Position numbers and translations under genes: made by a program. A stretch of 64,000 bases of DNA from Ruegeria sp. Ofav3-42 (GTDB lineage Bacteria > Pseudomonadota > Alphaproteobacteria > Rhodobacterales > Rhodobacteraceae). Positions 22,931 to 46,585 of this stretch are shown here, one piece after another (positions within the stretch are counted from its first letter, which is position 1; the number at the start of each line of letters is the position of its first letter). The DNA lies in the NCBI RefSeq assembly GCF_022347725.1, contig NZ_JAKRGB010000001.1:62001-126000 (forward strand). Direction: 5' to 3'. The notes under the pieces were generated by a model. That model was given only the letters and a program-made list of their open reading frames with translations. It did not search any database and was not told the DNA's origin.

Positions 22931-23170
22931 ATGGCTTCGGACAGACAGAATCTGCAGGACGCGTTCCTGAACAATGTACGGAAAGCAAAGGTCCCGGTCA
23001 CAATATTCCTGATCAACGGCGTGAAATTGCAGGGTGTAATCACCTGGTTCGACAATTTCTGCGTATTGTTGCGCCGCGACGGACAGTCGCAGCTGGTCTA
23101 CAAACATGCGATTTCGACGATCATGCCGTCGCAGCCGATCAGCCTGTATGAGGGCGAAGACGCCTCTTGA
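22931..23170 (+). CDS. hfq: RNA chaperone Hfq
   Basis: 79 residues, the compact alphaproteobacterial length with a short C-terminal tail. Sm1 motif: [30 protein letters not shown]; Sm2 motif: [13 protein letters not shown] (KH pair present). Pairs small RNAs with mRNAs as a hexameric ring. Linked with hflX (TGATG overlap), the usual hfq-hflX arrangement. The ribosome site is weak (CGAG). This is relevant to the candidate small RNA at 42.9 kb. Confidence 0.96.
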
Positions 23171-40953: not shown

Positions 40954-42768
40954 TTACTCTTCGTACCACCAGACCTGCGGCATGTATTCCGGCCCATCGC
41001 CATAAATCGGCAGAGTCTGCGGCTGTTTAAGCTCTTTGGCATGGGCGATCCGTCCCACATCGAAGTTCCAGATCGGAATGACATAGCGTCCCGCGGTCAG
41101 AACGCGATCAAGGGCGCGGGTCGCCGCAACAAAATCCTCATGGCTTTCCGAAGCAAGCATCGCGTCAATCAAACCGTCCACAGCGGGTGAGGTGACACCC
41201 ATCAAATTGCGGGTGCCCGGCGTGTCCGCATTTTCGCTGCCCCAGTACAGGCGTTGTTCGTTGCCTGGTGACAAGGACAGAGCGCGGCGGAAGAATGTCA
41301 TGTCGAAATCCAGCTCGGATGTTCGTCCGGTGAATTGGGCACTGTCGACCTGTTCTATTGTCACCTGAATACCAAGACGCTCCAACGCGCGCGAGTAAAT
41401 CTCGATAGCCGTCTGACTCTCGGTGTCGCCTTGTTGTAGCAACACGGTCATCGTGAAGGAATCGCCATTTTCGTTGCGCAGTATACCGTCTTGAATGGTC
41501 CATCCCGCGTCAGCCAGCAGTTTGGTCGCGGCCCGGACATTGGACCGGTTCCGGGCAGATCCATCGCCTTCCGGCAGGGTGTATCCCTCTAGCGCTCCGG
41601 GCGGCAGATCGTCTTTGAAGGACAGCAGCAGCTCTTCGACGCGCCCGGTAGCTGGGCCAGGCTGCATGGCCAGATCCGAGCCTGAGAAATAGGATGTGAT
41701 ACGCGGTTGTGCGTCACCCGTGATGGTGTCGTTGATAAACTCGAAGTTAAAGGCCAACATTAACGCTTCGCGAACGCGCCAGTCGTCAAACGGAGCCCGA
41801 CGTGTATTCATCACGAACCCGGTCATGCCCGAGGGCTTGCCGTGCGGGATTTCGATTTTGATGACGTCACCGCTTTGAACGGCCGGGAAGTTGTATTGTG
41901 TGGCCCATTTGTCGGCGTTGAATTCGCGCACGGCGGTCAGTTCTCCGGCTTTGAAGGCCTCGAACAGAACGGTGCCATCGCCGTAAAATTCGATCCGCAT
42001 CTCATCCAGATTCATGGTGCCGCGGCGGAAGGGGATGTCGGTGCCCCAATAATCCGGATTCCGTTTCAGGTTTACGTATCTGCCAGCCTCATAGCTGTCG
42101 ACGACATAAGGGCCGGTGCCGACCGGAATGTCATGCAGCCCGGCATTGGCGAAGTCTTTTCCTTCCCATTGGGCTTTCTGCAGGATTGGGCGCATCCCCG
42201 CAATAAGGGCAAGTTCGCGGTCAGGCTCGTTAAAGGTGATGCGCACGGACCTAGGTCCGGTTTGTTCGATGCTGTCAATTTTGCCCCACAGACCGCGATA
42301 TCGCAGATGGCCTTCGGTGCCCAACGTCTCATACGACCAGATGACATCGTCGACAGTCACCGGGGTGCCATCCGAGAATCGAGCGTTTTCCCGGAGCGTA
42401 AATTCGACCCAGGACCGGTCCGGAGCAGTCTCAACTGATTCGGCTAATAGCCCGTAAAGAGTGAAAGGTTCGTCCCAGGATCGGCCCATCAGGCTTTCGT
42501 GGGTCCAAAACCGCAATTGCCACGGAGAGCTGCCTTTTTGCACGAACGGGTTCAAACTGTTATAGCCGCCGGTATTCCCGAAAACGACGTTCCCACCTTT
42601 TGGCGCATCCGGATTGGCGTAGGGCAGAGACACAAAATCCGGTGGTAGCGCCGGGTCGCCATACATAGCTATGCCATGGGCCGATTCTGCATGAGCGATG
42701 GAAGTGCTCAAAAGGGCAGTGATTCCCGCAATCCAAGGACGTACGGGGCGTAGAAAATCGGGGCTCAT
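40954..42768 (-). CDS. Extracellular peptide-binding protein, family 5 (YejA-like), orphan
   Basis: 604 residues. A signal peptide is clear (cleavage after AHA, about residue 27). The SBP_bac_5 pattern is present: GGNVVFGNTGGYNSLNPF, DGTPVTVDDVIWSYE, RYVNLKRNPDYWGTDIP, long oligopeptide-binding lobes. It most resembles YejA, which feeds an ABC importer for peptides or microcin C. The permease and ATPase genes (yejB, yejE, yejF) are not adjacent; the 458 bases downstream are non-coding. A minus-strand promoter is visible upstream. Confidence 0.85.
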   Translation of the reverse strand: MSPDFLRPVRPWIAGITALLSTSIAHAESAHGIAMYGDPALPPDFVSLPYANPDAPKGGNVVFGNTGGYNSLNPFVQKGSSPWQLRFWTHESLMGRSWDEPFTLYGLLAESVETAPDRSWVEFTLRENARFSDGTPVTVDDVIWSYETLGTEGHLRYRGLWGKIDSIEQTGPRSVRITFNEPDRELALIAGMRPILQKAQWEGKDFANAGLHDIPVGTGPYVVDSYEAGRYVNLKRNPDYWGTDIPFRRGTMNLDEMRIEFYGDGTVLFEAFKAGELTAVREFNADKWATQYNFPAVQSGDVIKIEIPHGKPSGMTGFVMNTRRAPFDDWRVREALMLAFNFEFINDTITGDAQPRITSYFSGSDLAMQPGPATGRVEELLLSFKDDLPPGALEGYTLPEGDGSARNRSNVRAATKLLADAGWTIQDGILRNENGDSFTMTVLLQQGDTESQTAIEIYSRALERLGIQVTIEQVDSAQFTGRTSELDFDMTFFRRALSLSPGNEQRLYWGSENADTPGTRNLMGVTSPAVDGLIDAMLASESHEDFVAATRALDRVLTAGRYVIPIWNFDVGRIAHAKELKQPQTLPIYGDGPEYMPQVWWYEE

Positions 42769-42809
42769 TTTGGAAACAATCCTGCTCTGGCCTTATTTTG
42801 TTGGGATTC

Positions 42810-42838
42810 ATCGTAGCGATGATTTTTCATATTTTCAA
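42810..42838 (-). promoter_or_regulatory. Predicted promoter of the peptide-binding protein gene
   Basis: On the minus strand: -35 TTGAAA (complement of 42833-42838), 17-base spacer, -10 TACGAT (complement of 42810-42815). It is back-to-back with the candidate small-RNA promoter, the two -35 boxes only nine bases apart. Confidence 0.5.
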
Positions 42839-42847
42839 ACTTTTAGC

Positions 42848-42876
42848 TTGGACGAAGGCGCGGAATTGCTTATAAA
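42848..42876 (+). promoter_or_regulatory. Predicted promoter of candidate small RNA
   Basis: -35 TTGGAC (42848-42853), exactly 17 bases, -10 TATAAA (42871-42876). Expected start near 42883. Confidence 0.6.
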
Positions 42877-42882
42877 GGTTCC

Positions 42883-42957
42883 ACTGCTCGATAGGTTTCT
42901 TGCCTGTATGAAACCTGCCTCAATAACTTAACGCCCGCTTCGTGCGGGCGTTTTTTT
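42883..42957 (+). ncRNA. Candidate trans-acting small RNA, about 75 nt
   Basis: A good promoter leads into a short segment with no open reading frame, containing one hairpin (42893-42899 with 42910-42916, perfect 7 pairs) and, after a single-stranded CAATAACTTA-like stretch, a strong intrinsic terminator. This is the usual layout of an Hfq-dependent small RNA. The GC-rich terminator and T-run cannot serve an upstream gene, since the neighbour is transcribed away from it. Alternatives: attenuator leader of bdhA. Not matched to any named RNA. Confidence 0.6.
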
Positions 42958-42958
42958 T
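42931..42958 (+). terminator. Strong intrinsic terminator (end of candidate small RNA)
   Basis: Perfect 8-pair stem (42931-42938 with 42944-42951), five-base loop and eight consecutive Ts. Confidence 0.9.
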
Positions 42959-43061
42959 GTGCGGATTTGGCTCCGGATGTGCCGTCCGAATGTTTCCCCG
43001 TTTTCTTTGCAGGTGCAGCATGGCAGTGTGTCGTCAAACTGGATTTTGAAGGAGTTCGGCC

Positions 43062-43835
43062 ATGAGCCTTTCGGGAAAAACAGCCATCATCACCGGATCA
43101 AATTCGGGCATCGGATTGGGGGTCGCGCGTGAATTGGCCAAGGCTGGCGCGAACGTCGTGCTGAATTCCTTTACCGACCGCGACGAGGATCACGCCCTGG
43201 CCGCCGAGATCTCGCAAGAAACCGGCACCAATGCGCGCTATATCAAAGCCGACATGTCCAAGGGTGATGAATGCCGCGCTCTGATCGAGCAGGCCGGGGC
43301 TTGCGACATTCTGGTGAACAACGCGGGAATTCAGCATGTCGCGCCCATCGATCAGTTTCCGACCGACAAGTGGGATGCGATCATCGCGATCAACATGAAC
43401 TCGACCTATCACACTATGGCTGCTGCTCTGCCAATGATGCGCGCGGCCGGGTGGGGGCGGATCGTGAATATCGCCTCGGCGCATGGTTTGACGGCATCTC
43501 CGTTCAAAGCAGCTTATGTCGCGGCCAAGCACGGGGTCGTGGGGATGACCAAGACTGTGGCGTTGGAAACGGCGCAGGAACCGATCACCTGCAATGCGAT
43601 ATGTCCTGGCTACGTGTTGACGCCTCTGGTCGAAGCCCAGATCCCGAACACGATGAAGGAGTATGGCATGAGCCGCGAGGACGTGGTTAAAAACGTCCTG
43701 CTGGAGCGTCAGCCATCGAAAGAGTTTGCCACGGTTGAGCAACTCGGCGGCACCACGATCTTCCTGTGCTCAGATGCGGCCGCACAAATCACCGGGACCA
43801 CGATTTCAGTGGATGGCGGTTGGACGGCTTTGTGA
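43062..43835 (+). CDS. bdhA: D-beta-hydroxybutyrate dehydrogenase
   Basis: 257-residue short-chain dehydrogenase that oxidises 3-hydroxybutyrate to acetoacetate in PHB and ketone-body use. NAD site GSNSGIGLG (about 11-19), NNAG motif, catalytic Ser in IASAHGLTASPFKAAYVAAKHG with Y-x-x-x-K. The long C-terminal LTPLVEAQIP segment is diagnostic of BdhA. AAGGAG sits at good spacing. It precedes the patatin-like gene on the same strand, a pair I know from other Rhodobacterales. Confidence 0.9.
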   Translation: MSLSGKTAIITGSNSGIGLGVARELAKAGANVVLNSFTDRDEDHALAAEISQETGTNARYIKADMSKGDECRALIEQAGACDILVNNAGIQHVAPIDQFPTDKWDAIIAINMNSTYHTMAAALPMMRAAGWGRIVNIASAHGLTASPFKAAYVAAKHGVVGMTKTVALETAQEPITCNAICPGYVLTPLVEAQIPNTMKEYGMSREDVVKNVLLERQPSKEFATVEQLGGTTIFLCSDAAAQITGTTISVDGGWTAL

Positions 43836-44925: not shown

Positions 44926-45603
44926 TCACTCGGGCGGTTGCGTCGGGTCTTTTTCGTTGGGGTAAACAAGGCCCGCAGAAATCACCAGTTTCGCGGCGTC
45001 TTCGATGGACATGTCCAATATGATCACGTCCTCAGCCGGAAAGAACAAAAGGAACCCGGACGTCGGATTGGGTGTGGTCGGAACGAATACACCCAGCAGG
45101 CCGCCACTGGTTTCTGCCCGATCGCTGACTTCACCCTTTGCTGTGGTGGAGACAAAGCCAATCGCCCATATGCCCCGGCGCGGGTATTGGATCAGGCAGG
45201 CTTTTTCAAAGGACCGCTCGGTCTGTGCAAACACGGTTTCCGAGATTTGCTTGATCCCGGAGTAGACAGACCGGACAACGGGCATCCGGCTCACAAGGCT
45301 TTCAGCAAAGTGGATCAGGGACCGACCCAGAATACCCTTTGCAATCCAACCGACTATGACGGTGAAGGTCAGGAAGATGACGACGCCCACGCCACGCAGG
45401 TTAATGCCGACATATTCCTGAGGCTGGAACTGCTGAGGTATAAGCGGCAGCACCGCGCTGTCGATCCAGCCGACGACCGACCAGATCAGCCAGATCGTCA
45501 GCCACACCGGTGCAATGACCACAATGCCTGTCAGGAAAGACGCACGCAGCCGGGACAGCAGACCCGGGCGGCGATGCGGTTCTTCGTCAAATGGTGTGTT
45601 CAT
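44926..45603 (-). CDS. DUF502 family membrane protein
   Basis: 225 residues, two or three hydrophobic segments (about 18-45 and 68-90: TGIVVIAPVWLTIWLIWSVVGWI, GVVIFLTFTVIVGWI). The conserved SVYSGIKQISETVF, LIQYPRRGIWAIGFVS and FVPTTPNPTSGFLLFFP motifs are those of DUF502. The function is unknown. It is transcribed alone; the stop abuts that of the patatin gene. Confidence 0.88.
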   Translation of the reverse strand: MNTPFDEEPHRRPGLLSRLRASFLTGIVVIAPVWLTIWLIWSVVGWIDSAVLPLIPQQFQPQEYVGINLRGVGVVIFLTFTVIVGWIAKGILGRSLIHFAESLVSRMPVVRSVYSGIKQISETVFAQTERSFEKACLIQYPRRGIWAIGFVSTTAKGEVSDRAETSGGLLGVFVPTTPNPTSGFLLFFPAEDVIILDMSIEDAAKLVISAGLVYPNEKDPTQPPE

Positions 45604-45670
45604 TGCGGTCCTGAGCGGTTTTCTGCCGAGTTAGTTAAGCAGTCCGGTGCGTAGGTACAATAGGTTTATC

Positions 45671-46585
45671 TCAATCGGTTCGGTTGGACAGGGCCCGTGC
45701 AATTCCGGCCGCCAGTCGCGCATTGTTACGCACCAAGGCGATGTTAGCCGTCAGCGAACGTCCTTCTGTCTGCTCGTAGATTCGTTGCAGCAGGTAGGGC
45801 GTGACACCTTTGCCGCTGATACGGTGTGCGTCAGCGTCAGCCTGGGCCGAGGCGATGATCGGGGCCAGTTCCTCGGCCGGGATTTGATCCTCGGTCGGTA
45901 TGGGGTTGGCGACCAGTTGACCGCCCGGAAGACCAAGCGCGCGGCGTGTTGCGTGGGCCTTGGCGATATCGTCTGCGCTGTCCATGCGAAGCGGTGCGGC
46001 ATAGGCCGACTTCGCAGACCAGAAAGCCGGGAATTCGTCCTGTCCGTATGCGATGACCGGAACGCCCAGCGTTTCCAGAACCTCTAGCGTTTTGGCCAGG
46101 TCGAGGATGGCTTTGGCACCCGCAGCCACGACCGTTACCGGGGACTGCGCCAGCTCGTGCAGATCGGCCGAGATGTCAAAGGTCGTCTCGGCGCCCTGAT
46201 GTACACCGCCAATGCCGCCAGTGGCGAAAACCTCGATCCCGGCGTAATGCGCGGCGATCATTGTGGCCGCGACCGTCGTCGCGCCGGTTCCGCCGGTTGC
46301 CATACAGGCAGCCATGTCCGCACGGGACAGCTTGGCGACGCCCTGAGCCTGGCCCAGCGATTTCAGCTCATCGGCCTCAAGACCGACGTGCAGCTTTCCT
46401 TTGATCACGGCTATAGTAGCCGGGACTGCGCCTGCGTCGCGGATGTCCTGTTCGACCTGTGCCGCCACCTCGATATTCTGAGGGTAGGGCATCCCATGGG
46501 TGATGATGGTGCTTTCCAGCGCAACGATGGGTTGGCCTGCGTCTTTGGCGGCGCGGACCTCGGCGGAATATTGAATGTCGATCAC
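45671..46585 (-). CDS. psuG: Pseudouridine-5'-phosphate glycosidase
   Basis: 304 residues. Splits pseudouridine 5'-phosphate into uracil and ribose 5-phosphate. Family landmarks: ALESTIITHGMPYPQN at the N-terminus, VALESTII with catalytic Glu, ATGGTGATTVAATM, ATGGIGGVHQGAE, and GQDEFPAFWSAKS. It is the second gene of a psuK-psuG pair; the ATG overlaps the kinase stop (46582-46585). Lets the cell salvage pseudouridine from RNA turnover. Confidence 0.92.
   Translation of the reverse strand: MIDIQYSAEVRAAKDAGQPIVALESTIITHGMPYPQNIEVAAQVEQDIRDAGAVPATIAVIKGKLHVGLEADELKSLGQAQGVAKLSRADMAACMATGGTGATTVAATMIAAHYAGIEVFATGGIGGVHQGAETTFDISADLHELAQSPVTVVAAGAKAILDLAKTLEVLETLGVPVIAYGQDEFPAFWSAKSAYAAPLRMDSADDIAKAHATRRALGLPGGQLVANPIPTEDQIPAEELAPIIASAQADADAHRISGKGVTPYLLQRIYEQTEGRSLTANIALVRNNARLAAGIARALSNRTD

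Follow-up and report, generated by a model that had tools for sequence, protein, structure and literature searches.

The closest described system is StsR (RSs0827), a small RNA that acts in trans; the passages available describe it only in Rhodobacter sphaeroides. According to these passages, StsR is an orphan intergenic RNA of 72 nt (PMC8307010) that depends on RpoHI/HII (PMC8307010, PMC11354728), is induced by iron limitation and prolonged singlet oxygen stress (PMC3413700, PMC3688512), and pairs with the UpsM/dcw 5' leader; rpoE has been reported as an additional target, without being a defining feature. In that species, the pairing with the leader is described to expose it to RNase E and to lower dcw mRNA, and growth and division slow. 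Another report, in its available part, gives the dcw leader a length of 268 nt, places its terminator 84 nt ahead of mraZ and presents such a long leader as a feature of Rhodobacteraceae (PMC5089854). UpsM (RSs0682) is derived from this leader and is the target in the pair, whereas the small RNA analyzed here would be the regulator.

In this study, we analyzed a window of 64,000 nt (the whole stretch of DNA considered) from Ruegeria sp. Ofav3-42, for which an earlier note had proposed a self-contained small RNA gene equipped with both a promoter and a terminator. The sequence strongly supported this proposal. The features used below are as follows (window coordinates unless a contig is named).

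40954..42768, minus strand: divergent neighboring gene for a family-5 solute-binding protein (PF00496, E 3.3e-72)
42835..42846, plus strand: conserved A/T-rich box TCAAACTTTTAG directly upstream of the -35 element, a possible UP element or activator site
42847..42876, plus strand: predicted promoter CTTG-N-TATAAA, fitting part of the published RpoHI/RpoHII logos
42883..42958, plus strand: predicted StsR-like small RNA (from fold and conservation) of about 72-76 nt, that is, 68 nt and part of the eight-T run
42884..42890, plus strand: nt 2-8 (CUGCUCG), a possible second contact with CGAGCAG of the dcw leader
42892-42899/42910-42917, plus strand: stem of hairpin 1, with the loop UUGCCUGUAU at 42900-42909
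42901..42917, plus strand: nt 19-35, complementary to the dcw (mraZ) 5' leader at G000:C33:135827-135843
42930..42958, plus strand: intrinsic terminator, whose stem is kept while the stem sequence varies by genus (read from the alignment)
43062..43835, plus strand: bdhA, 3-hydroxybutyrate dehydrogenase (TIGR01963 above cut-off), starting 103 nt past the T run

All elements that had been proposed for the transcription unit were found as located: TTGGAC at 42848-42853, a 17-nt spacer, TATAAA at 42871-42876 and an A at 42883, from which transcription would start. The body of about 75 nt with its hairpin was also present, and the 76 nt from 42883 folded at -26.3 kcal/mol compared with a shuffle mean of -14.1 (z -4.75), with none of 200 dinucleotide shuffles folding as well. 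The terminator proved to be as claimed, with a stem at 42930-42952 and eight Ts at 42951-42958, which gives an RNA of 68 nt up to the T run and 76 nt to its end. Since terminator-like sites are common in the surrounding 6 kb (10 versus 6.1 in shuffles), the terminator alone is weak evidence; it is conservation that is decisive, and on this ground we regard the small RNA gene as real. A micro-ORF (MKPASIT-stop, 42908-42931) starts inside the hairpin. The first five codons coincide with the fixed RNA core, but the end position varies, with a stop within 12 codons in only 66 of the 114 listed loci; thus, it is probably not translated.

The promoter had been described as near-consensus. Its elements are indeed present, but this description was overstated for sigma-70: TTGGAC agrees with TTGACA at three of six positions, and the TTGGAC/TATAAA promoter was absent from the list produced by a sigma-70 promoter scan of the surrounding 6 kb. 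Among the matches listed, the fixed -35 place carried TTG in 103, CTTG in 95 and TTGAC in none of 116 named loci, and a per-position table of the listed named loci gave T, A, T and A of the -10 element at 98, 99, 94 and 93%, respectively. The features reported for RpoH promoters, in the available part of the source, are C-37, TTG at -36 to -34 and A-12, together with T-9 for RpoHI and with C-14 and T-13 for RpoHII (PMC3441632). When the register was counted from a start at the base after 42883, C-37, TTG, T-13 and A-12 fitted, but T-9 and C-14 mostly did not, being found in 12% and 15% of loci, respectively. The promoter appeared to fit the RpoH register better than sigma-70, and control of the RNA by RpoH seems likely. 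The box TCAAACTTTTAG is kept in most family members, and CAAACTT occurred within 60 nt upstream in 96 of 116 named loci among the matches listed.

The RNA is an ordinary kind of object and was very highly conserved. In DNA searches, the stretch was present in each of the 36 other genomes sampled from the genus and in 289 of 295 genomes of the family sample (288 of 294 genera, own genome included); among 24 genomes from elsewhere in the class, a 25-nt piece of the terminator was all that one contained. The earlier note had called for a covariance search in related Rhodobacterales, and a model made from 54 sequences gave a match in all 390 genomes of an order-wide sample, covering 139 genera, all listed as Rhodobacteraceae. 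When 289 genomes of the class were sampled, scores of 105-107 bits came from the four members of the family and scores of 25-29 bits from eight other genomes, and 277 gave no match; the eight non-family scores are at the level of weak second matches within the family. Thus, matches outside Rhodobacteraceae were found only at chance level. Six family genomes lacked both a DNA match and a covariance-model match. They consist of 70-530 contigs each, four of them are less than 90% complete, and mraZ was present in five, with a leader site of at least 12 nt in four and of 16/19 in the fifth (G193). Because these genomes are fragmented, yet most of those with mraZ keep the leader site, the missing RNA is likely an assembly gap. 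Extra model matches in some genomes were weighed as second copies; these were weak (23-32 bits) and were not counted as paralogues.

In the best 28 loci of other genera, 42890-42919 was 100% identical, 42920-42959 was 95-99% identical and 42960-42989 was 14-26% identical. We also compared at least 118 named loci picked by an exact 22-nt core, 114 of which had enough sequence: among the matches listed, the whole 40-nt 5' part was identical in 114 of 114, with 22 of these nt fixed by the selection of loci and the other 18 free to vary. Of 26 primary matches chosen for low score, absence or extra matches, 19 were read; the exact 40 nt were present in 14 and altered in five. Loci in which this core is naturally changed (L258 of genome G089, L245, L243, L255 and L257) are rare and should be useful for testing which bases matter.

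Comparison with known RNA families gave no other identity. At the gathering threshold, Rfam found only a tRNA in the whole window, and no family of release 15 reached its cut-off at the small RNA. A permissive search returned Leu/Trp leaders (26-27 bits), suhB, Hrs13 and others, all below their cut-offs and with the alignments shown resting mostly on the terminator. MmgR (suhB, RF00519) is alike in having about 77 nt with a hairpin and a terminator, and the alignment was full-length; however, it scored 24.9 bits against a gathering threshold of 41, and the similarity was mostly in the terminator. The Paracoccus RNA 'intergenic 134' (Gaimster 2016) was also considered; we claim no identity with it, as the homology reported for it, to Mesorhizobium and Streptomyces, is at odds with the present RNA. 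In the available part of a paper on small RNAs of Ruegeria pomeroyi (PMC4809877), intergenic RNAs are given without coordinates, so no match was made.

The surroundings of the gene invite two other explanations. GcvB is a small RNA that acts on transporter mRNAs. The earlier note had suggested such control of an ABC transporter, and the divergent binding-protein gene does adjoin the RNA in 107 of the 113 listed named loci whose flank spans 400 nt or more; hfq, which the note had also claimed for the genome, was found in the window at 22931-23170 on the plus strand (Pfam Hfq, E 6.9e-34), and an Hfq step for the RNA would be plausible. In addition, nt 2-7 (CUGCUC) could pair with GAGCAG in the leader of the binding-protein gene in this and several other genomes. 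However, the best pairing at the start of this gene had an energy of -14.1 kcal/mol, which 17 of 60 shuffles equaled or surpassed, and only two of 30 binding-protein leaders reached p<=0.05 (leaders taken at a fixed distance from the RNA in 30 of the at least 118 named loci, with 19 shuffles each that kept base composition, not dinucleotides). The RNA core was also unchanged in the six listed loci where the binding-protein gene is not the neighbor. For example, the RNA lies near an Lrp/AsnC-type regulator gene in L092, between S1-domain (rpsA-like) and CBS-domain genes in L076, and, in L099, with an mfd-like gene on one side and DUF502 and Indigoidine_A genes on the other; since the latter two are relatives of the window genes at 44926-46585 (40% identity for the second), the L099 neighborhood appears rearranged rather than wholly foreign. 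SorX, likewise a small RNA acting on a transporter mRNA (PMC8307010, as far as the available text goes), and GcvB differ from the present RNA in that transporter mRNAs are their targets, and here no transporter pairing exceeded chance. A GcvB-type identity was rejected on this ground and on a model score of 13.8 bits against a gathering threshold of 42. Because pairing with the transporter gene was no better than chance, the transporter suggestion is left unsupported, and a GcvB- or SorX-like control of the divergent gene is very unlikely. As a separate observation, the leader side of this gene (42770-42799) was 78% conserved across genera in the best 28 loci, and this conservation of its 5' region suggests that the divergent gene may have its own promoter or leader control.

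The other explanation, a leader or attenuator of bdhA, which the earlier note had set against its own proposal, would have transcription start at 42883 and be regulated at the terminator before bdhA. The gene is on the same strand, 103 nt separate the T run from its start codon, which lies within 450 nt downstream in 80 of 105 listed loci, and both the Leu/Trp leader scores and the micro-ORF starting within the hairpin might recall an attenuator. Yet bdhA was farther away in eight and not found in the available stretch in 17 of the 105 listed loci, where the RNA core was intact; the leader-model alignments have the weakness noted above, and the micro-ORF lacks a constant end. Such a leader is therefore unsupported, and we consider it the least probable of the explanations weighed here, with hardly any chance of being correct. 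Since the core persists without the binding-protein neighbor and without a nearby bdhA, the RNA is to be read as an autonomous gene. Among candidate pairing partners, bdhA of the own genome (10 of 60 shuffles pairing as well) and rpoE, both in the own genome (35 of 60) and in five loci of a Rhodobacter-like genus (8 to 52 of 60), behaved like the binding-protein gene, with predicted pairing no better than chance.

A different result was obtained for the dcw leader. In the own genome, nt 19-35 of the RNA matched G000:C33:135827-135843 at 17 of 17 positions, and mraZ is at 135200-135631 on the other strand of this contig; thus, the leader RNA made from the dcw operon carries the complement of nt 19-35. 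The site precedes mraZ by about 190 nt and lies on the 5' side of a strong terminator, so that a long terminated leader like UpsM is also present in this genome, and the order of site and terminator resembles that of UpsM in the available part of its description (PMC5089854). In a first set of genomes, mraZ was located in 29 of 30 (own genome included), and 28 of these 29 leaders had at least 10 nt of perfect complementarity, at the region of the RNA loop and 3' arm; the sole leader of this set without a site was that of Jannaschia sp. LMIT008 (L207). A second set comprised 21 family genomes chosen for a divergent or missing RNA, 20 of which had mraZ, and 16 of the 20 leaders again reached at least 10 perfect nt. 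The exceptions were G193 (16/19 with mismatches), G089 (RNA core and site both eroded), G068 (imperfect pairing) and G077 (leader ending at a contig edge). Overall, at least 10 perfect nt were found in 44 of 49 family leaders, compared with none of 49 on the opposite strands of the same 500 nt and none of four outgroup leaders. The opposite strand across whole 3-kb loci reaches 8-11 nt; thus, a 10-nt match alone is unconvincing, and it is the shared place that convinces.

Duplex energies pointed in the same direction. With 24-nt windows, the local duplex in the own genome was -30.9 kcal/mol versus -19.9 (sd 2.1) for shuffled leaders, with none of 60 as good, and opening the leader site costs about 2.5 kcal/mol. 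In nine further genomes with a divergent RNA or leader, six (G287, G351, G068, G114, G064 and G227) beat all 25 shuffles, which kept base composition but not dinucleotides, whereas the duplexes of G655, G161 and G453 were not stronger than all 25. For G068 and G227 (the latter with the window placed on the site), the values were both -32.8 versus -20.0 kcal/mol, with sd 2.4 and 1.9, respectively. Coevolution in G089, whose changed RNA has a 10-nt match to its own leader, was considered but is not claimed, as 6 of 40 shuffles, again keeping base composition only, were as good. Taken from these sequence comparisons, the dcw leader is the predicted partner of the RNA.

A second contact might also exist. 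In 25 of 29 leaders, the complement of nt 2-8, CGAGCAG, followed site 1 within 90 nt, an order that a two-part duplex would require; none of the other 45 7-mers tested was found there in more than one of the 29. A chance complement is nevertheless possible because that leader stretch is conserved anyway; our own estimate of this chance is about 5%. The stretch GCGAGCAGACATCCCCCCAGGTGGCGCGCGC downstream of site 1 is near-invariant in most of the 29 leaders (e.g. L188 and L180).

On the other strand, outside the window (L305 866-1494, G000:C33), the region upstream of the dcw leader contained a DUF1127 ORF and, after it, three RNAs resembling CcsR1/ar14 (30.6-48.8 bits, under the gathering threshold); this arrangement is similar to ccaF1-CcsR of R. 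sphaeroides. The names RSs0680 and RSs0682, if they mark neighbors, presumably place ccaF1-CcsR beside UpsM in that species, and the likeness would then favor the StsR reading.

With the gene, its conservation, its complementarity to the leader and the conservation of that complementarity observed computationally, we consider that the element is most probably an orthologue of StsR, with a probability of roughly 0.87, judged from the published description of StsR. Both are orphan intergenic RNAs of about 72 nt; the one is RpoH-dependent in print and the promoter of the other fits the RpoH register in part, and pairing with the UpsM/dcw leader in print corresponds to computed complementarity here. 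By sequence, a short terminated RNA with its own predicted promoter and a match to the leader were both found, whereas the rpoE pairing near the start reported for StsR was not supported in the own genome. The present RNA also differs in coming from Ruegeria, and it was compared with StsR by published description. Against orthology are the missing site in L207, the eroded core and site in G089, the three of nine divergent genomes without a duplex above all shuffles, the absent RpoHI -9 T and mostly absent RpoHII -14 C, and the unsupported rpoE pairing. The description-based likeness and the failure to reproduce rpoE targeting could also be explained by a distinct small RNA that has UpsM/dcw as a common target with StsR. 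However, the RNA agrees with StsR as published, in the passages available, in its length, its predicted RpoH-type promoter, its position as an orphan between genes and its predicted UpsM pairing; as it also occurs across the family samples (289/295 and 390/390), a distinct RNA seems quite improbable.

If the StsR reading is correct, an RpoH-type sigma factor would turn the RNA on under stress or in stationary phase, and its hairpin loop UUGCCUGUAU would meet AUACAGGC in the long dcw 5' leader (UpsM region). As the leader carries the same GGUUUC as the 5' arm of the hairpin, pairing could then spread into the stem, with the leader displacing this arm, to give about 17 continuous pairs, and the tail of nt 2-8 might bind the leader a second time farther along. 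Leader cleavage by RNase E, lower dcw mRNA and slower growth and division would be expected in Ruegeria as in R. sphaeroides; transcription, the sigma factor, the Hfq and RNase E steps and this physiological effect are what we infer for Ruegeria. A broader and more tentative idea, which we think possible though rather less probable than its opposite, is that stress is coupled to division by a two-part RNA switch made up of StsR and the dcw leader, ancestral and shared across the family, in which the loop nucleates, the leader invades the stem and the invariant 5' tail clamps the second CGAGCAG. If this were true, the 40 nt would have remained unchanged because of a double contact common to nearly all Rhodobacteraceae.

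Near-universal presence in the samples, conserved pairing and a possible second contact were not found in the available passages on StsR, and our results suggest that the StsR-UpsM pair may be near-universal in Rhodobacteraceae. The conserved core, the pairing sites and the natural variants provide material for a covariance family. An orphan prediction beside a transporter gene would thus become a testable link between stress and division in marine Rhodobacteraceae.
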